A stretch of DNA of 64,000 nt. It comes from a virus. The position numbers were made by a program, and so were the translations under genes. The stretch covers positions 1 to 64,000 of the IMG/VR virus record IMGVR_UViG_3300020207_000022; one strand, written 5' to 3'. How positions within the stretch are numbered: the stretch's first letter is position 1; each line of letters opens with the position of its first letter. Below the pieces are notes generated by a model. The model was not told the origin of the DNA. It made no database searches and worked only from the letters and a program-made list of their open reading frames with translations. Shown here in pieces: positions 32,176 to 64,000 of this stretch.

Positions 32176-32595
32176 TTACTTTAACCAACCAAGTTTTTCT
32201 CCTGCATCAATTCGTCTCTGAGATTCTTCTTTTGAGCCAGGATATCTCCATGCCCAAGTAACAATCAGTGCGAACAAGATAAACAGGTAAAGTGTTGCTT
32301 TTGGATTACCCGTACCGAAGTACATCGCTGCAAGTGATGTTGACATCACTGCCATCATAATATACTTAGCTTTTTGTGGATAGACTTTATAGGTCTGCCA
32401 TTCAGTAATGAATGGACCAAATGTTTTGTGGTTCATAATCCAGTTGTGGAACTTCTCACTAGATTTTGCGAAACAAAAAGCTGCACCAAGAATAGGTGTT
32501 GACCAAGGAATGCCTGGCAAGATCACACCAAGGTATGCAATACCTAGACACAGGATCCCGCAAACAAACCAAAACGCTTTTTTAATTTTACTCAT
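32176..32595 (-). CDS. DUF454/YbaN-family inner-membrane protein
   Basis: 139 residues from ATG at 32595; a start at 32652, whose ATG overlaps the ALAS stop as ATGA, would add 19 residues. Family marks: GIAYLGVILPGIPWSTPILG, AAFCFAKSSEKFHNW and HKTFGPFI, with four hydrophobic spans. YbaN/DUF454 proteins are widespread in proteobacteria and their biochemical role is unknown. It is adjacent to and possibly coupled with 5-aminolevulinate synthase. Confidence 0.8.
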   Translation of the reverse strand: MSKIKKAFWFVCGILCLGIAYLGVILPGIPWSTPILGAAFCFAKSSEKFHNWIMNHKTFGPFITEWQTYKVYPQKAKYIMMAVMSTSLAAMYFGTGNPKATLYLFILFALIVTWAWRYPGSKEESQRRIDAGEKLGWLK

Positions 32596-32648
32596 TTTAT
32601 TTTCTCTCTTCCATATTGTTTTACCAAAATACCAAGATTCTAATTGGT

Positions 32649-33848
32649 TCATTTTAAAACTTTCTTCAATGCTGACACCAACTCTACCATCATCACATCA
32701 TCATGATATGGCGTTGGTGCAATTCGTAATCTTTCTGTCCCGACATCTACTGTCGGTGAGTTAATCGGTTGAATGTAAATCCCAAACTCGTTTAGTAGTC
32801 TATCAGATGCTTCTTTACATTTAAAAGCATCGTTAACCATCACTGGTACGATATGCGTACACGCATTTTCATGAACAGGAATTCCTGCATCTGCAAGCAT
32901 TTGTTTTAACGTACTTGCTCTCTCTTGATGTCGTCTATGGGCGGAAGGATTGTCACTGATATATTTGATTGAGGCGATAGCTCCGGCGCAGAGGACGGGC
33001 GAGATACTTGTTGTAAAGATGAACCCAGAAGCCACGGACCGAATAGCGTCAATAACAATACTGTCCCCAGCAATATAACCCCCTTGAACCCCAAACGCTT
33101 TTCCCAGTGTTCCATTTATAATTGTTATCCTATCTTGTAAACCTAAATGTTCACAATATCCTGCACCTGTGGGACCATATAATCCTACCGCATGGACTTC
33201 ATCGATATAAGTTATTGCTCCATATTTATCTGCGAGATCACATATCTCTTCAATTTTCCCTACGTCACCATCCATAGAATAGACAGACTCGAATACAACA
33301 CATGGTACTTGATTATTCTTAGTCGCAGTCTTTAATGCATTCTCCAAGTCCTTCATATCGTTGTGTTTGAAAATGATCTTGTGTGCACGACTATGTTTCA
33401 TGCCCATAATCAAAGAAGCATGGTTCTTGTTATCTGAAACAAAACAGATATTAGGAATGATACGAGAGAGTGCAATAAGTGACCATTCGTTGGCGACATA
33501 TGCAGAAGAGAATAATAGTGCCCGTTCTTTCTTGTGTAACTGTGCGAGAACACCTTCAAGTGTTACGTGATAATGTGATGTACCACCAATGTTTCTTGTC
33601 CCGCCAGATCCCGCACCAGTTTGATCTAGTGCAGTATGCATTGCATCAATGACATATTGGTTTTGACCCATCCCAAGATAATCATTTGAACACCAGTTTA
33701 CAATATTCTTTGGTGCATATTTTCCATACCAAATGGAGCGAGGAAACTTCCCTCGCTCTCTTAGTATATCGTTGAAGACTCTATACTTGCCTTCTTTTTT
33801 AAATGAGGAAATTACTTCTTCAAAATTATCTTTAGAAATCATGCCCAT
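32649..33848 (-). CDS. hemA: 5-aminolevulinate synthase (ALAS), alphaproteobacterial type
   Basis: 399 residues, close to the usual 400-405. Catalyses glycine + succinyl-CoA to 5-aminolevulinate, the first step of heme synthesis in alphaproteobacteria. Family-defining features: [11 protein letters not shown] (52-62), [18 protein letters not shown] (77-94) which separates ALAS from KBL and Bio[29 protein letters not shown] with the PLP-ring Asp216, and [15 protein letters not shown] with the PLP Lys250. C-terminal [20 protein letters not shown] is also typical. It is intact and probably functional. It follows glutaredoxin/NrdB and precedes YbaN, with a late-type element upstream. C4-pathway ALAS points to an alphaproteobacterial gene origin and host. 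Confidence 0.93.
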
Positions 33849-56854: not shown

Positions 56855-56862
56855 TATTTATC
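56855..56862 (-). promoter_or_regulatory. GATAAATA late-type promoter
   Basis: 7 of 8 matches to TATAAATA on the minus strand, 33 bases before the start at 56822, overlapping the helicase stop. Supports the shorter start for the capsid-targeted gene. Confidence 0.6.
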
Positions 56863-58270
56863 ATTGTAGACCACTTACATCGTCAAAGATATTCTTCTTT
56901 GGTTTCTTAAGAGCAGGTAGGTCATTAGGTAATGCAGGTTTAGTAACCTGTGACTGATTATCCATTGTCTGACCAATGTTGTCTTGCGCAGAATCTTCTA
57001 GATCATAGATCTTCATCTTTGATCTGTCAATACCCACAAGGAACCGACGATAGTAACCAGTGTCACCCCAACGGTTCTTTAGTTGTTTCAACATTAATTG
57101 ACCCAGTTGGTCAAGTTCTTCTGTAGTCACAAGTCCTAGAATGCAGTCGGCAGTGTGTGTAATTCCCATACTCTCTGAAGTATTAGTAAGGTCAACGTCA
57201 CTATTCCCATAGCCGTCACGATTGAACTGAGACGAAGTAACCACAGCACAATTAAATTCCATTGCAAGTCCACGTACCTCTTCTGCTATTGATTTAACTA
57301 ATGTATAACTGTTTGCAGCTGCCGCACCACGCACACGTGATGACGAACAGATGTTTAGATAATCTACGAAGATCAGATCAGGCACAAACCCTTTCTTCAT
57401 TCGTAGTTCGTTCAAGAGATGTCGGAAGTGTCCCACATGCGCAGACCCAGTTGGATATTCTTTGATAACCAACTTACCTGTTGTCTTTGACTTGTAACGG
57501 TTCATACGTTTATCAAACACGTCACGTGGCGTGATAGAAACATCATCCAATGTCACATCCATAATGTTCGCATCGATACGACGACCAATCTCTTCTTCTG
57601 CCATCTCCATTGTAATGTACAGAACATTCTTACCATACATGAGTGCGTTTGCAGCCATGTGACACTTGATAAGAGATTTACCACCACCAGTAGTGGCGAG
57701 TAAGACTGTCATAGACTTACGAGGCAGACCACCTTTGGTGATTTTGTTTAGGATGTCGATATCAAATGGGAGTCGTTCTTCTTTACGATGATAAAACTCA
57801 TAACGTGAGTCGTACTCTTCTAAGAAGTCGTGACCAACTGAAGTATCGAAACTGATACCAAGTGAGTCAGAGAGAAGTTTGGGGATGGACCCTTTGTCGA
57901 GTCCGTCCCCACTGCCTTCAAGTATATTAATTGACTTACGAATAGAATTGTATAGATCACGGTCTTGACAGAACTTCTCTGTCTCGTCAATTAAGAATTG
58001 GAGATCTGTTGAGTTGTCACGAGAGATACCAGATAATTCGGATTGTGCATCCTTGTACTGGTCTTCGTTCAAATCTTTTCGTTTATCAATAGAGAGTTTA
58101 AGAGCCTCCACAGAGGGAGGCTCCTTGTATTGTTCGACATACGATACAAAAGTGTTGAATACCTTTCGTAGTGTAATGTCTTCAAAGTAATCTTCCTTCA
58201 GATAAGGATATACCTTTCGGTAGTATTCCTCATTCAGAAGTAGATTCGATAAGATCGTCTGTTCTATCAT
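56861..58270 (-). CDS. 41: Replicative DNA helicase (T4 gp41/DnaB type)
   Basis: 469 residues. N-terminal helical domain (MIEQTILSNLLLNEEYYRKV), then the RecA-like motor with Walker A ATTGGGKSLIK, YITMEMAEEEIGRR, Walker B LIFVDYLNICSS and VVTSSQFNRDGYG. Unwinds DNA at the phage fork; loaded by gp59, partner of primase gp61. Overlaps UvsX by 41 bases. Confidence 0.93.
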   Translation of the reverse strand: MIEQTILSNLLLNEEYYRKVYPYLKEDYFEDITLRKVFNTFVSYVEQYKEPPSVEALKLSIDKRKDLNEDQYKDAQSELSGISRDNSTDLQFLIDETEKFCQDRDLYNSIRKSINILEGSGDGLDKGSIPKLLSDSLGISFDTSVGHDFLEEYDSRYEFYHRKEERLPFDIDILNKITKGGLPRKSMTVLLATTGGGKSLIKCHMAANALMYGKNVLYITMEMAEEEIGRRIDANIMDVTLDDVSITPRDVFDKRMNRYKSKTTGKLVIKEYPTGSAHVGHFRHLLNELRMKKGFVPDLIFVDYLNICSSSRVRGAAAANSYTLVKSIAEEVRGLAMEFNCAVVTSSQFNRDGYGNSDVDLTNTSESMGITHTADCILGLVTTEELDQLGQLMLKQLKNRWGDTGYYRRFLVGIDRSKMKIYDLEDSAQDNIGQTMDNQSQVTKPALPNDLPALKKPKKNIFDDVSGLQ

Positions 58271-59291
58271 CGTTGTGGTCCACGTTTAGTTTATACTTGC
58301 GCTCAATATACACGTTAAATGCGTCATTGGCAACAAGTTTCTCAAAGAATGCGTCATCTTGTTCGATGTCTTTTAGTCGACGACGAGGTTCGATAACTTC
58401 TCCTGTGTCCAAATCAACAAGGTTATACCAACCCTGTGTCGACTTGGAAATAAACCCAGCTTCCAGTGCGAGGTCAAATAGTGCTGACCACTTCTGAATA
58501 CCACTTTCGTAAAGAACTGTGAAAGGTAACTTTGACTTCTCTTTTACGAAACGTGACTTTTCGATGTTGATTGTGAACTTGAATCCTGCGAGATCTGTAC
58601 CATCCTTCTCTTGTGATTTGGTAATGATAAAAATCTGATTTGCAGAATAGTAGATCCCTGTACCACCTGATACGACAGCCTTAGGGAACATACCGATCTC
58701 TTGGTACACGTGATTGATTGCAATCAAAGGAATATTTTTTGCAGTCAACTTTGGTGTAACAATACGGAAGAGAGACTTCAATGCTTTTGCACGAGACATG
58801 TCAGCGACTGCTTTCTCGTTCATCGCATCTTCAACTTCTTTCTTCGATGCAAGGTTACCTACAGAGTCAATCATGATGAACACGTTGTCATCTTTCTCAA
58901 TCTGTTCCAACCTTTTGGTGATGTCAAACTTAAGTTGTTCAACATCTTCAACAGGGATGTGGATCACACGATCCGTATCAATGTTGTAACTTTCTAGATA
59001 CTCTGGTGTGATACCATACTCAGAGTCGTACAACAGCGCAACACCGTCTTCATACTTATCTAGATATGCCTTCATGCAGTACAGTGACAGCAAAGTCTTA
59101 AACGACTTTGACTGTCCTGCAACTACAGTAAGGCCTGGGATTAGTCCACCCTTCAGCGATCCACTAAACGCAATATTAACAATAGGAAGTTCCGTTTGAA
59201 TAGGATTCTTCTCTTCGAAAAAACTGGATTTAGAGAGAACTGAGGAAGACTTCACTGCTCCTGCTTTGAGCATTTTGTCTAAGAGACTCAT
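58230..59291 (-). CDS. uvsX: RecA-like recombinase UvsX
   Basis: 353 residues. Walker A AGQSKSFKTLL (the T4-like GxSKSFK form), VALLYDSEYGI, IDSVGNLASKKE and AINHVYQE match UvsX. Strand exchange for recombination-dependent replication, with gp32 and gp59. Acidic C-terminus. Confidence 0.93.
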   Translation of the reverse strand: MSLLDKMLKAGAVKSSSVLSKSSFFEEKNPIQTELPIVNIAFSGSLKGGLIPGLTVVAGQSKSFKTLLSLYCMKAYLDKYEDGVALLYDSEYGITPEYLESYNIDTDRVIHIPVEDVEQLKFDITKRLEQIEKDDNVFIMIDSVGNLASKKEVEDAMNEKAVADMSRAKALKSLFRIVTPKLTAKNIPLIAINHVYQEIGMFPKAVVSGGTGIYYSANQIFIITKSQEKDGTDLAGFKFTINIEKSRFVKEKSKLPFTVLYESGIQKWSALFDLALEAGFISKSTQGWYNLVDLDTGEVIEPRRRLKDIEQDDAFFEKLVANDAFNVYIERKYKLNVDHNDDRTDDLIESTSE

Positions 59292-59294
59292 AGT

Positions 59295-59609
59295 CTATTC
59301 CCCTTCTGCGATTACTCTCAACTTGTCTTTGTAATTTTGGATTTTCTCTACACGATCAGGCCAGAAGATTGTACTCTTTTCTGGTGACTTACACAGATTG
59401 TCAAGAAATGGAACAACCGAATGAAACAGTTTTTCCAGCCTTGCTTCCAATGCAATCTTCTCATTCATGAGATCACTGAGTTGTCCTTCGAGATCTTCTG
59501 CAGCAGCTTGAGTAGCTACTGCAGTTTCTTTTACTGCTTCAATTTCATCATCGATGAAACTAAAACCAAAGTCGAAATCGATTACATCTGTTGTCGATTT
59601 AGTACTCAT
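59295..59609 (-). CDS. Small coiled-coil protein between gp32 and UvsX (104 residues)
   Basis: 104 residues: DFDFGFSFIDDEIE start, then a coiled coil (AAEDLEGQLSDLMNEKIALE) and a short alpha/beta end. Gene position between gp32 and uvsX is typical for T4-like marine phages; function unknown, possibly a replication accessory. Confidence 0.6.
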   Translation of the reverse strand: MSTKSTTDVIDFDFGFSFIDDEIEAVKETAVATQAAAEDLEGQLSDLMNEKIALEARLEKLFHSVVPFLDNLCKSPEKSTIFWPDRVEKIQNYKDKLRVIAEGE

Positions 59610-59615
59610 ACCGTC

Positions 59616-60560
59616 TTAACCTTTTGCAAGTTCCTTGAAGATTGATAGATCATCATCGTCATCATCTACTGTAGATGAAGAACCTGTAGGAGCGGGTTCA
59701 AAAGGGATTGAGTCCTCTTCGACTGCAGGTGCAGTCTTCGCAAATGAAGGTGTGGCGGATAGATCTAGACCGTCATCTTCATCATCATATGCACTAGGAG
59801 CAGATGGACCTGCATCTTCACCAAGATCTAACACTCTATATAGTTTGGTTTTCAACTCCGCATAGGACTTGAAGTTCTTCGGATCAAGAAGTTCCTGTAG
59901 AGAATGTTCTTGGTTGTAGATGGTTTCCAATTCTGAATCATCATCAGACAATGGTGAAGGCGCATCGAACTCTGACTTATCATAGTTTGGGTAACCTTCG
60001 AACTGACGGATCTTCAGACGGAAGTTTGCACCTTCCCACAGATCAAATGGGTTTACAGGTGTCTCATCTTCGAACTGAGGATTCATTAGATCGTTCAGTT
60101 TGTCGAAGATTTTCTTACCGAACTGGTAAAGGAATACTTTACCTTCGTTCTCTGGATTCGCTGCATCCTTGATTACTTGGATGTTTGCGACATACTTCAG
60201 GCGGCGTTTCTGTTTACGTGCCTGTTCCTTATCTGAGTCAATACCAGAATTCCACAGTTTAGAGTTATACTCTGACACTGGGTCATCTTGGTTAAGAGTC
60301 GTCAAAGAGTTTTCGATATACCACTGACCAGATGGTCCTTGGAAACCGTGATCCCAAATACGCACGAAAGGCATCTCTTCACCCGCAGGCGCAGGCAAGA
60401 AACGAATGATTGCAAACCCATTGCCCGCTTTATCACGAGTAGGTTTCCAGAACTTTCCTTCGTTCGGATCTGAGTAAGATTTTTGGGAAATTTTATCCAG
60501 TTGTGCATTTAGTTTATCAAGTGATGCAGAACGAGATTTTTTAAGAGCTGCGAATGACAT
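59616..60560 (-). CDS. 32: Single-stranded DNA-binding protein gp32
   Basis: 314 residues. N-terminal LAST-like start (MSFAALKKSRSASLDKL, residues 1-17) for cooperativity, OB-fold core (PAPAGEEMPFVRIWDHGF, IENSLTTLNQDDPVSEYNS, ANIQVIKDAANPENEGK) and a long acidic C-terminal tail. The stretch corresponding to the T4 zinc site (NSLTTL...VSEYN) has no Cys, and no Cys occurs anywhere, so it is a zinc-free gp32. A consensus promoter (60694-60721) inside gp59 lies just upstream. Confidence 0.93.
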   Translation of the reverse strand: MSFAALKKSRSASLDKLNAQLDKISQKSYSDPNEGKFWKPTRDKAGNGFAIIRFLPAPAGEEMPFVRIWDHGFQGPSGQWYIENSLTTLNQDDPVSEYNSKLWNSGIDSDKEQARKQKRRLKYVANIQVIKDAANPENEGKVFLYQFGKKIFDKLNDLMNPQFEDETPVNPFDLWEGANFRLKIRQFEGYPNYDKSEFDAPSPLSDDDSELETIYNQEHSLQELLDPKNFKSYAELKTKLYRVLDLGEDAGPSAPSAYDDEDDGLDLSATPSFAKTAPAVEEDSIPFEPAPTGSSSTVDDDDDDLSIFKELAKG

Positions 60561-60608
60561 ATGTTTGTCTCCTTTATATTGCAGTGTATTACGTTGTATA
60601 GCGTTGTG

Positions 60609-61211
60609 TTAGATATCAAAGTGGTCCTTGACATAAGTCTTGTACCGTTTCATGTCCAACATCAGGAAAGGAAAATACTTTCTTGAGTGTTGTATTATAT
60701 CAGAAGCCACGAATTTGTCAAGTAGATTCTGCTCCCAATATGTAAAAATATTTGCAATGTGTATTAGTATTGCAAATGTTTCCAGACTTATTTTCTTCTG
60801 TAGATACAGAGTCAATACGACTGGGTGTTGACCATCGGTTACGAAGTTTGACTTCCAATCATCGTTAAGATGCTTTAAATCAGACTTGAAGTGATAACCC
60901 AACGAGTCAATCTTTTTCTTCCATTCGACATACAGAAAGTCGTCCTCTGCGATATCTCGAATCCATGCGTTTGGGTTCTTGACTAAGTTTGCAAGAAGAA
61001 CGTTTTCGTAGTCCTCATGTTTAGCGAGTTTTGCAAAGTAAAATGCATCGTTGCGACTTTTGAATGCGTCGAAGGATGCTCTTACCTTACCCCTATATTT
61101 ATGAAAATCGTAACTTGGCGAAGTAAAATGTTTCTTCATTGCGAGGTATTTTATGTACGCCTCATACGACTTATCATTCACATAACTCGGTAATGTCCTG
61201 TTGTTCATCAT
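60609..61211 (-). CDS. 59: Helicase loader gp59
   Basis: 200 residues, helical. VNDKSYEAYIKYLAMKKHF, FDAFKSRNDAFYFAKLAKHE and the C-terminal half with SFQ-type NFVTDGQHPVVL fit T4 gp59 in order and length. Loads gp41 on gp32-coated forks. Starts inside the gp33 gene and contains the gp32 promoter. Confidence 0.82.
   Translation of the reverse strand: MMNNRTLPSYVNDKSYEAYIKYLAMKKHFTSPSYDFHKYRGKVRASFDAFKSRNDAFYFAKLAKHEDYENVLLANLVKNPNAWIRDIAEDDFLYVEWKKKIDSLGYHFKSDLKHLNDDWKSNFVTDGQHPVVLTLYLQKKISLETFAILIHIANIFTYWEQNLLDKFVASDIIQHSRKYFPFLMLDMKRYKTYVKDHFDI
60694..60721 (-). promoter_or_regulatory. Sigma70-type promoter for gp32 inside gp59
   Basis: TTGACA, 16 bases, TATAAT on the minus strand, within the gp59 reading frame, about 130 bases before the gp32 start. 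Confidence 0.75.
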
Positions 61212-61425
61212 TTCGTTTTACCATCTTCAAACCGACTGCTTCTCTTCTTATTTTTTCTTTCAAAATAGACGACTTTTTGATGACATCTGCGACTGATTCG
61301 ATTTCCAAATTATGTTTATCTGCATAACTAATTAGTGCCTCGATATAAGGCACACCATTTGCAATTAAATCTGCAATGGCGAGGTGAATTTTTTCTGGTG
61401 TAAGTGACACCACATTATCTTTCAT
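61174..61425 (-). CDS. 33: Late transcription coactivator gp33-like protein
   Basis: 83 residues. The helical region VPYIEALISYADKHNLEIES and VADVIKKSSILKEKIRREA matches the gp33 of T4-like cyanophages, which bridges gp55-RNA polymerase to the sliding clamp at late promoters. Its presence agrees with the TATAAATA elements found. TAATG overlap with the bilin reductase. Confidence 0.78.
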   Translation of the reverse strand: MKDNVVSLTPEKIHLAIADLIANGVPYIEALISYADKHNLEIESVADVIKKSSILKEKIRREAVGLKMVKRNDEQQDITELCE

Positions 61426-62102
61426 TAATCTTCTATCTCCTGAAATAATATGTTATTCACATAATAATCTTTGTCTTCCTCACTAATACCCATAGCAAGG
61501 ATACTATTGTGCAACTGATGATTCTTTTTTTGGTTTATACAATACTTGTTGAGTAGATCCCTAGTAGGGAAATCAACCTGCACTGCTTGGTGATTCATAT
61601 TATCCATATAATAACATATTAATTCAGAAGTTGCAAGCAAAAATTTATCAGTTTCTTCTTCTCTTACATTACCCACAGCCATCATGTGATCACTGAAGAT
61701 CTCTTTAGCCCAGTCTGGAAGTTCACGAGGTTTCTTCCAAGTAAACTTTTGTGTCTCTTCATTGAAATGTTTACACATAACGTGATCATCATGAACGACA
61801 GGAGAGAAGTCAAAAAATGCACCGCTGATTTTGTTTGGTCCTGCAACAATGTCACATCCAAGGATAGGAAGATCCCATCCAGATTTTGGGAAGACATTTA
61901 AGTGCAGTAACCACAATCGTCGTTCTTCTAGCAAGTCAATTGTTTTCAAATGACATTTTTCGATGAGATCTGATTTCCAAAAATCGTCTTTCCATCCATC
62001 AAACTCTTGGACGTGTAGAGGATTTTCATACGAAATTAAGTGTTCATCGAATATACTACTTATGTTCTCAGCGAATTCTTTCAGTTTATCCTTGTGGTTC
62101 AT
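61425..62102 (-). CDS. pcyX: Ferredoxin-dependent bilin reductase (PcyA/PcyX-like)
   Basis: 225 residues, right size for the family. LHLNVFPKSGWDLPILGCDI (66-85) followed by VAGPNKISGAFFDFSPV (86-102), PRELPDWAKEIFSDH and YCINQKKNHQLH...YYVNNILF follow PcyA closely. Against Synechocystis PcyA, His88 and Asp105 align with His67 and Asp84 and Asn219 with Asn194, while Glu76 aligns with Lys53 and Asp220 with His195. Loss of Glu76 argues against phycocyanobilin formation; marine phage PcyX makes phycoerythrobilin. Follows heme oxygenase with a 17-base overlap. Confidence 0.85.
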   Translation of the reverse strand: MNHKDKLKEFAENISSIFDEHLISYENPLHVQEFDGWKDDFWKSDLIEKCHLKTIDLLEERRLWLLHLNVFPKSGWDLPILGCDIVAGPNKISGAFFDFSPVVHDDHVMCKHFNEETQKFTWKKPRELPDWAKEIFSDHMMAVGNVREEETDKFLLATSELICYYMDNMNHQAVQVDFPTRDLLNKYCINQKKNHQLHNSILAMGISEEDKDYYVNNILFQEIED

Positions 62103-62628
62103 TACTCAACTCTTCAAAAGAACGAAATGCGAAATCAAAACAAATTCTTGCTTCATCTGCCATAGAGTCATCAAGTAACGAACGAAGACCCTTGATCAAT
62201 TCATAACGATGTTCGAAATCGTAGTACTTACCACTGCCTGGCACCTTCTTCTTAATCATTTGACCGCCATGTAGGTCACCAAAGTGACGTACATATAAGT
62301 GTGCAAGAAGTTTATGATTATCGTTTTTAATTCCTTCAATGTAACCTACGTATTCGACAGTAGTATCTAACGCCTTTTCGATAGGAGAAAGGTTATACTC
62401 TTTCATCAGTTCTTGCATATCTTGAAAGATTGCGTCTGCACGGAACACACCACGCCATGGTTCTGGCAGATCCACCGCTCCTTCTAATGCACCATAACAG
62501 ATCATCTGATTGAAAAGATACTTTTGATAATCTTTAGGTTCGATATCTCCACTCATAAGCAAAGATGCAAATGGTGACTGTTCTGCTCTTTCGTGATGTT
62601 CCCATGTAAGTTCTTTTAGATTACTCAT
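62086..62628 (-). CDS. ho: Heme oxygenase
   Basis: 180 residues, slightly shorter than the 220-240 of cyanobacterial HO1. Proximal-ligand helix TWEHHERAEQ with His12 in the H-x-x-A-E pattern, YLFNQMICYGALE, and the distal helix YVRHFGDLHGGQM (G-D-x-x-G-G) are canonical. Converts heme to biliverdin, CO and iron, using ferredoxin. Gives biliverdin for the neighbouring bilin reductase. Overlaps the methyltransferase by 8 bases. Confidence 0.9.
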   Translation of the reverse strand: MSNLKELTWEHHERAEQSPFASLLMSGDIEPKDYQKYLFNQMICYGALEGAVDLPEPWRGVFRADAIFQDMQELMKEYNLSPIEKALDTTVEYVGYIEGIKNDNHKLLAHLYVRHFGDLHGGQMIKKKVPGSGKYYDFEHRYELIKGLRSLLDDSMADEARICFDFAFRSFEELSNEPQG

Positions 62629-63292
62629 TTGGTTCCTTTCTGTGAGGTATCATTCCAAAAATGAAATATCTTATACCTCTTTCTTCTCCTATTTCCATTT
62701 CCTTTAAAATTTTTGCCTCCATAGGCATTTGCAATTTAAATTCTTTCATGGACGAAACGCAGTTTATATGACCTTCTATATCCAACATGTTATTCGATTG
62801 ACATGCAATCCAAATGTTTCTTGGATTTTGTTTGTATTTTGGATTCAAATGCTGTAGGTGCATAATGTCAATCATATCATCCATGTGTTCACAGGAAGTG
62901 TTTATAACTAACAAATCGTTTGCGTCTTGTAATGTTTTAACTCTCTGTTTAGATAAATCTTGTTTACTAAAAATAACATTGTCATATTTGTGTAACTGTG
63001 TAGCAATGTGTCCCGCCTCTTCATCGATATCAAAACATATGATGTCCTTTACAAGCGGAGCCAACACAGGAACCAAAATAGAACCAAACCAAGATCCTAT
63101 AATTGTTACTGACAAATCTTTAGATAGTATACCACTTTCTAACACAGTTGTCAAGAGTTCTTTTTTCGAAATAAATTGATTAGGGCTAACAGAGTCCCAC
63201 AATTCAGTCGCTTTTTCTGGGAACCTCTGAGATATATGAACGATTCTGTTCATGTAGTCGATATCAATAGTGTTATTGTATAAGTCAATCAT
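62621..63292 (-). CDS. SAM-dependent methyltransferase-like protein
   Basis: 223 residues from ATG at 63292, overlapping the carbamoyltransferase stop as ATGA; the longer frame to 63457 is an out-of-frame reading. Motif I VTIIGSWFGSILVPVLAPLV and ICFDIDEEAGHIA, then LLVINTSCEHMDD as the post-motif. Function unknown. The promoter of the ho-pcyX pair lies inside it. Confidence 0.62.
   Translation of the reverse strand: MIDLYNNTIDIDYMNRIVHISQRFPEKATELWDSVSPNQFISKKELLTTVLESGILSKDLSVTIIGSWFGSILVPVLAPLVKDIICFDIDEEAGHIATQLHKYDNVIFSKQDLSKQRVKTLQDANDLLVINTSCEHMDDMIDIMHLQHLNPKYKQNPRNIWIACQSNNMLDIEGHINCVSSMKEFKLQMPMEAKILKEMEIGEERGIRYFIFGMIPHRKEPNE
63126..63154 (-). promoter_or_regulatory. Sigma70-type promoter upstream of ho-pcyX
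   Basis: TTGACA, 17 bases, TATACT on the minus strand, inside the methyltransferase gene and about 500 bases before the heme oxygenase start, so it likely feeds ho, pcyX, gp33 and gp59. Confidence 0.65.
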
Positions 63293-64000
63293 TTTACTAC
63301 AACATAATCTTCTATAACCAAAATGTCTAAACCAACTCTGTTGAATGTAGCGAGCGCTTCTTCTGGGGTTTCTACAATTGGTTCTTGACAATTGAAACTC
63401 GTATTTAAAAGCATAGGGACGCCTGTCTCTTCTTTGAACGCATTGATGACGTTCCAATATTTTTCATTGAATGATTTTTCTACTGTCTGAATACGTGCAG
63501 TTCCGTCAACATGCGTCACGCCTGGTATTACAGATCTTTTATCTTCCTTCACAGGCATGATACGTGACATGTAAGGTGAGGGTTGGTTTGTATCAAACCA
63601 CTCTTGATAATCCTCAATCAAGACTGAAGGAGCGAATGGTCTAAAGTCTTCTCTGAGTTTGATCTTCTCGTTGATGATGCCCTTGATATCTGGGTTTCTG
63701 GGATCCGCAAGGATCGAACGATTTCCTAGTGCACGATTTCCACTTTCAGATCTACCTTGATACCATCCAACGATAGATCCACCAGCAATTTGTTTTGCAA
63801 TAAATGGATATATGTCATCCATATTCATTTTCTTGTATTTCATACCAACAAAAATCTCTTCTTTCACTTCATGTTCAATGCCAGCATACACTTTTGGAAT
63901 ATGCACATTATTATTTATGACATAGTCTGCCATCATATAAATCCCAACGGATTGTCCCTCATCTCCTACTGCAGGCGGCACAAAAACATTGTCATATATC
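63289..64000 (-). CDS. Carbamoyltransferase (NodU/CmcH/HypF-related), C-terminal part (runs off right edge)
   Basis: The reading frame is open to the window edge. The C-terminal ATP-grasp-like half is visible: VFVPPAVGDEGQSVGIYMMA, IVGWYQGRSESGNRALGNRS, REDFRPFAPSVLIED, HVDGTARIQTV and MLLNTSFNCQEPIV are the standard Carbam_trans_C motifs. Transfers a carbamoyl group from carbamoyl phosphate to a sugar or other acceptor. Common in T4-like marine phages. Confidence 0.85.
   Translation of the reverse strand, partial: IYDNVFVPPAVGDEGQSVGIYMMADYVINNNVHIPKVYAGIEHEVKEEIFVGMKYKKMNMDDIYPFIAKQIAGGSIVGWYQGRSESGNRALGNRSILADPRNPDIKGIINEKIKLREDFRPFAPSVLIEDYQEWFDTNQPSPYMSRIMPVKEDKRSVIPGVTHVDGTARIQTVEKSFNEKYWNVINAFKEETGVPMLLNTSFNCQEPIVETPEEALATFNRVGLDILVIEDYVVVK

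Follow-up and report, generated by a model that had tools for sequence, protein, structure and literature searches.

Gene content of the locus

We analyzed a 64,000-nt stretch of viral DNA (the window), which comprises bases 1-64000 of a linear, fragmentary virus record of 65,833 bases. Given this record length, the rest of the genome beyond the window amounts to 1.8 kb. The features discussed here are listed with their evidence in parentheses.

63289-64000: carbamoyltransferase genes upstream of hemO
62621-63292, minus strand: methyltransferase-like gene (without Pfam match; the name follows, by analogy, the annotation of a carbamoyltransferase neighbor in phage Mosig)
62086-62628, minus strand: hemO, heme oxygenase, 180 aa (ORF and Pfam PF01126)
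62086-62102, minus strand: 17-base overlap between the hemO end and the FDBR start (ORF coordinates)
61425-62102, minus strand: ferredoxin-dependent bilin reductase (FDBR), 225 aa, Lys53-type sister of PcyX (ORF, PF05996, 5owg match, alignment, tree, AlphaFold2 model and Foldseek)
61174-61425, minus strand: gp33, late-transcription coactivator (Pfam PF16805, 1.7e-12)
60609-61211, minus strand: gp59, helicase loader (PHROG 269, 1.3e-43)
59616-60560, minus strand: gp32, single-stranded DNA-binding protein (PHROG 224, 7.3e-120)
between gp32 and uvsX, minus strand: ORF of 104 aa
58230-59291, minus strand: uvsX recombinase (PHROG 97, 4.1e-89)
56861-58270, minus strand: gp41, DnaB-like replicative helicase (PHROG 19, 5.5e-125)
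32649-33848, minus strand: alaS, 5-aminolevulinate synthase, first step of heme synthesis (TIGR01821, 4.3e-167, 550 bits, cut-off 338.55)

The order on the minus strand is hemO, FDBR, gp33, gp59, gp32, the 104-aa ORF, uvsX and gp41. The initial annotation had described a tight pair of a heme oxygenase and a bilin reductase gene with a 17-base overlap, directly followed by gp33 and gp59 in a T4-like core. The ORF coordinates agree with the overlap and with the positions of gp33 and gp59, and gp33, gp59, gp32, uvsX and gp41 were all identified. The FDBR stop shares one base with gp33 (61425), and hemO overlaps the preceding methyltransferase-like gene by 8 bases. With overlaps of 17, 8 and 1 bases, the locus reads as one operon. 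Translational coupling of hemO and FDBR via the 17-base overlap is probable.

Carbamoyltransferase genes were likewise found upstream of hemO in contig L027 (7289-9831), with a methyltransferase-like gene immediately before hemO. An adjacent carbamoyltransferase/methyltransferase pair is also present in Mosig (EXVC030M), a cultured phage of Pelagibacter (SAR11), but elsewhere in the Mosig genome.

HemO and FDBR belong to the predicted enzyme families

HemO matched the Pfam Heme_oxygenase profile (PF01126; 7.7e-17, 62.2 bits, cut-off 23) and, by sequence, heme oxygenase structures (3.8e-10). Together with the profile match, a proximal His (His12) and the GD..GG motif, present in the distal helix as G117-D-L-H-G121-G122-Q, place it in the HO-1 type. 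His12 was conserved in 128/128 distinct phage heme oxygenases with a residue at this site, and G121/G122 in 130/130. The FDBR matched Fe_bilin_red (PF05996; 4.8e-20, 72.6 bits, cut-off 31), and its best solved relative was PcyX (5owg, 5.5e-37). An AlphaFold2 model (pLDDT 92.5) showed the alpha/beta/alpha fold of FDBRs, with TM scores of 0.78-0.82 against PcyA and E values down to 6e-12. Foldseek returned 46 PDB matches to this model at E <= 0.001, all of them FDBRs or related red chlorophyll catabolite reductases. Homologues were present in hundreds of viral contigs with hemO adjoining, far beyond chance. The initial family assignment of both proteins is thus well founded, the Pfam cut-offs being passed widely and the FDBR fold being present in the model. 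We consider it very likely that the two enzymes carry out the predicted conversion of heme to a reduced bilin.

The FDBR carries Lys at a catalytic site and belongs to a sister clade of PcyX

PcyA catalysis uses Glu76, His88 and Asp105, with Glu76 required for reduction of the 18-vinyl group (PMC10151467). In PcyX, which makes phycoerythrobilin (PEB), Asp55 is a specific catalytic residue (PMC11480375). The window FDBR keeps H51, H67 and D84, which correspond to PcyA H74, H88 and D105. At the site of PcyX D55 and PcyA E76, it has K53: following the invariant His (PcyA His74), the alignment reads HLD in 5owg, HLE in Synechocystis PcyA and HLK in the window, with no gap ambiguity after His51. 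Both His sites were invariant among 230 distinct phage FDBRs (H67 in 230/230), and D84 was found in 229, the remaining one having an unreadable residue. Site 53 was Asp in 133, Asn in 2, Glu in none and Lys in 95, all from one clade, the Lys count being inflated because the set was pooled from several scans and the peptide pattern of one (A3) included the Lys. Scans A1 and A4 used peptide patterns elsewhere in the FDBR, away from this site.

The phylogeny against PcyA, PcyX and PebS that had been proposed as a check was run for the FDBR. The Lys clade (99/99) and the Asp clade (99/98) were reciprocally monophyletic sisters, with 5owg and Mosig inside the Asp clade. When the site was masked, the Lys state still had a single origin on the 236-row tree. 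PebS was split off from the window FDBR at 100/100, without any grouping of the two. In this tree, which was built without any alphaproteobacterial PcyA, the window FDBR was well outside the PcyA group and far from cyanophage PcyA and PebS.

Thus, of the earlier label of a PcyA/PcyX-type reductase, the FDBR family stands, while K53 at the catalytic site and the position as a sister of the PcyX clade instead of a member do not fit it. The window FDBR shares with PcyX the adjacent hemO, but it has no Asp55 and lies outside the 5owg/Mosig clade. As to PcyA, it retains the equivalents of His88 and Asp105 and has Lys53 in place of Glu76. Since two defining features of PcyX and one of PcyA are missing, PEB, which PcyX makes via 15,16-DHBV, should not be assumed as the product, and the earlier reading of a PcyX-type PEB maker is not a safe one. 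The loss of the carboxylate at this site could lower or redirect the activity of Lys53-type FDBRs.

The Lys-type pair is fixed in the replication locus

In nearly all contigs of sufficient length, the Lys-type pair lies just upstream of gp33-gp59-gp32-uvsX-gp41. Either gp33 or gp32 was present on 210/218 Lys-type stretches vs 8/159 Asp-type stretches, and hemO was present on 202 of the 218. To avoid circularity, contigs were also fetched by gp59 alone, and only those with at least 4.5 kb upstream were counted; both hemO and FDBR were present in 31/31. The Mosig-type (Asp-type) pair lies mostly elsewhere. Pairwise distances of FDBR and hemO tracked those of gp59, gp32 and uvsX (rho 0.48-0.63; 0/999 permutations as high). 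The comparisons indicate that the Lys-type pair is fixed within the replication locus of a large, widespread clade of T4-like phages, rather than being sporadic cargo.

Against close relatives, dN/dS was 0.05-0.14 where dS was unsaturated, which points to strong purifying selection on the pair. A fusion or pseudogene is ruled out, as both ORFs are intact and under such selection. In the comparison of the window with L005, dS was 0.1-0.35 in gp32, uvsX and gp59 and 1.8 in hemO, and it was saturated in the FDBR. Over 58230-62628, against both L005 and L007, the replication genes had dS values of 0.1-0.55, whereas hemO/FDBR reached at least 1.8 or were saturated. This jump indicates that recombination exchanges alleles, either those of the cassette or those of the neighboring genes, with a boundary near the cassette.

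Two further observations concern the locus. Asp-type (PcyX-like) pairs were found upstream of gp33/gp32 in L415, L417, L420, L429, L445, L446, L458 and L461, and the locus may therefore be ancestral for both clades. Many Lys-type contigs have a conserved short ORF between hemO and FDBR, highly basic and about 55-85 aa long (examples are L064:2368-2622, L079:539-757 and L098:7822-7989), with the motif ...RSEAARxRRKExKxIRETR...NEWAKxRRxRK...

alaS is present in the same record

The alaS gene, overlooked in the initial annotation, lies 27.6 kb from the pair, as the next larger gene after nrdB and on the same strand. Besides the window, 7 relatives carry it, among them 3/4 Lys-type records of more than 100 kb. 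No alaS turned up in the 194-kb relative G002, and the combination of AlaS, HemO and FDBR is therefore not universal. Since no PHROG match was obtained for alaS, phage annotation pipelines may miss it. Near alaS are nrdB and nrdA, and it has a 4-base overlap with a DUF454 gene (32176-32652). The NrdA/NrdB of the window are of class Ia, and a 2OG-Fe(II) oxygenase is also encoded there.

We searched the Lys-type phages, including records of 194-221 kb, with profiles PF00502, PF01590, PF00360 and PF00111. There were no matches, and no phytochrome, GAF, phycobiliprotein or [2Fe-2S] ferredoxin was recognized in these phages; a Fer2 protein was found in Mosig alone. The search for bilin-binding proteins suggested by the initial annotation thus returned none in the Lys-type phages. 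With no phycobiliprotein, GAF or phytochrome domain in the phage records, any bilin-binding target would have to come from the host or be a protein not recognized as such.

The host is probably an alphaproteobacterium

In a gp41 tree, which included only six isolates, the Lys-type phages formed one clade (100/99). The next isolates outward, modestly supported (88/82, 95/89), were Caulobacter phage Cr30 and Sinorhizobium phage phiM12. A permuted tmRNA was detected upstream of hemO in 15 Lys-type contigs (L098:5987-6339, L028:5292-5624, L073:2793-3218, L053:6062-6439, L085:6556-7022 and ten other loci), and the tags were mostly ANDN/ANEN...ALAA-like. All 6 tmRNA contigs examined passed the gathering threshold of RF01849, the Rfam family of alphaproteobacterial tmRNAs. 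In the window itself and its nearest relatives, no tmRNA was found. Since the tmRNA lies directly before gp33 in Mosig, the hemO/FDBR pair of the Lys-type tmRNA phages sits at the tmRNA/gp33 junction. As a caveat, the tmRNA of phage Melnitz is likewise of the alpha type, and this phage infects a gammaproteobacterium (PMC9004378). From the gp41 neighbors and the alpha-type tmRNA of relatives, the host is probably a nonphotosynthetic alphaproteobacterium, in line with the initial annotation.

That the pair is a cyanophage light-harvesting gene set wrongly given to a heterotroph is very improbable. FDBRs are common among cyanophages, and the best UvsX match was BUCT-ZZ01, a phage listed on Synechococcus elongatus. 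Against this, the FDBR is far from cyanophage PcyA and PebS, gp41 groups with Cr30 and phiM12, and an alpha-type permuted tmRNA is present at the locus in relatives. The phage AlaS is, in addition, a Shemin-pathway enzyme; cyanobacteria, in contrast, rely on the C5 pathway. On the FDBR and gp41 trees, we reject a cyanophage origin, and the non-cyanophage setting of the initial annotation holds.

A scan of 385 alphaproteobacterial genomes for a bacterial source of the pair gave two above the cut-off. One was a Rhodobacteraceae MAG with three FDBR contigs bearing the phage locus; the other had distant FDBR-like proteins outside the Lys/Asp phage FDBR group. A plasmid search for the pair gave no match. 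Phage-looking contigs or phage-type FDBRs were binned in bacterial MAGs in several cases (L028, L029 and L031 in Rhodobacteraceae bacterium Water_Bin34; L030; L032-L034), and such phage FDBRs can therefore pass as bacterial ones in databases.

Comparison with known systems

The novelty of the pair in an alphaproteobacterial phage had been overstated. In Mosig, hemO and the FDBR gene overlap, and cassettes of hemO, pcyA/X and a phage alaS, intact or "broken," have been described in phage contigs (Nat Commun 2024; PMC11480375). What is new here is the Lys53-type sister of PcyX at a fixed phage locus; the hemO/FDBR pair itself was already known in ocean viruses. As in Mosig and 5owg, the FDBR gene follows hemO immediately and overlaps it, the phage is T4-like with an alphaproteobacterial (here, probable) host, and the FDBRs share the fold and the PcyA H88 and D105 equivalents. 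Unlike the Mosig protein, the window FDBR (35-39% identity) has Lys53 instead of Asp55 and belongs to a separate clade. Moreover, the Mosig pair lies beside neck genes, whereas the window pair lies beside gp33-gp59-gp32, and alaS was not found in Mosig.

The window has the arrangement of a broken cassette, with hemO and FDBR linked and alaS elsewhere in the same genome. It resembles the valaS-hemO-pcyA/X cassettes, including that of Crystal Bog phage CB_2, in this combination of genes in one phage and in a predicted alphaproteobacterial host. Some cassette phages are predicted to infect nonphotosynthetic Alphaproteobacteria, and cassette contigs were reported to be of pelagiphage origin by gp13 phylogeny (PMC11480375); no gp13 was identified in the window. 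HemO and FDBR of CB_2 are active, and this FDBR, which has no Asp55, makes phycocyanobilin (PCB), which assembles with Cph1 (PMC11480375). The lack of Asp55 is shared with the window FDBR, CB_2 being compared here from its published description. In contrast to the window, CB_2 is a 527-kb freshwater phage with a PCB-forming FDBR.

Cyanobacterial and cyanophage PcyAs are of the same superfamily and share the H74, H88 and D105 equivalents, but the window FDBR has Lys for Glu76 and lies well outside their group. Pre-PcyAs are active FDBRs of heterotrophic, nonphotosynthetic bacteria that have no Glu76 (PNAS 2023; PMC10151467). Glu76 is thus absent from both, but pre-PcyAs also have no His88, which the window FDBR keeps. 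Their genes lie with those for bilin-binding globins and V4R proteins, whereas no phycobiliprotein-type globin was found here.

A reduced bilin as the proposed product

Taken as a whole, we read the locus as a phage heme-to-reduced-bilin module with an FDBR of the Lys53 sister clade at a fixed locus (probability roughly 0.6). Gene identities, clade, locus and selection can be read from the sequences, and from there we infer the activity, electron donor, timing and host of the module. AlaS would supply the heme synthesis of the host by carrying out the committed step (5-aminolevulinic acid, 5-ALA), HemO would open heme to biliverdin, CO and iron, and the FDBR would reduce biliverdin to a phytobilin with host ferredoxin. 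The phage would thereby control both ends of the route, 5-ALA formation at the start and the conversion of heme to bilin at the finish, with the intermediate steps left to the host. HemO and FDBR would probably be made together with the replication proteins.

The pair might instead serve iron or heme catabolism, with HemO freeing host-heme iron for phage iron enzymes and the FDBR only clearing biliverdin and so pulling HemO turnover. NrdA/NrdB and the 2OG-Fe(II) oxygenase of the window are candidate iron enzymes, ferrochelatase and several 2OG-Fe(II) oxygenase genes lie beside the pair in Mosig, and an iron-supply role is discussed in PMC11480375. The absence of a recognized bilin-binding protein from Lys-type phages also fits. 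We consider this explanation doubtful, because genomes that also carry AlaS would spend iron on heme merely to break it down, with nothing gained if only iron is wanted, and because iron release alone needs no reductase kept in every member, whereas the FDBR was retained without exception in the gp59-found set. To our knowledge, heme oxygenases serving iron supply elsewhere need no FDBR. A bilin as product accounts for hemO, FDBR and AlaS together, and iron release for hemO alone. We therefore tentatively favor a reduced bilin as the wanted product over iron release, at somewhat less than even odds; the bilin would serve a host protein or redox/radical scavenging. Its host role may differ between members of the clade.

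As to which bilin is made, PEB formation as by marine phage PcyX would agree with the closest solved relative (5owg), with the hemO-FDBR gene order of PcyX pairs and with PEB as the PcyX product (PMC11480375). We regard it as rather unlikely, given the separate sister clade, the absence of Asp55 (K in 95/95 distinct clade members) and the formation of PCB by the CB_2 enzyme, which likewise has no Asp55. This last enzyme suggests PCB as a product that could reload a host phytochrome, as CB_2 PCB assembles with Cph1 and CB_2, known by description, could itself be of the Lys type. PCB is an equally uncertain candidate: Glu76 is required for 18-vinyl reduction (PMC10151467), Lys is no obvious substitute, Glu occurred in 0/230 phage FDBRs, and no phytochrome was found in Lys-type phages. 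More speculatively still, the Lys53 clade would be a separate kind of bilin reductase, with a regiochemistry of its own, and a near-core gene of a large T4-like clade; with AlaS, it would turn host carbon into a bilin that acts within infected cells of nonphotosynthetic Alphaproteobacteria, outside known phycobiliproteins and phytochromes.

Bilin use by phages of nonphotosynthetic bacteria thus becomes a testable question. One diagnostic residue allows cheap sorting of phage bilin reductases and provides a clean structure-function contrast (K53 vs D55 vs E76), and it cautions against labeling every phage FDBR linked to a heme oxygenase as a PEB-making PcyX. Rare FDBRs with Asn at this site (L406, L407 and L411), each paired with hemO, are possible intermediates.
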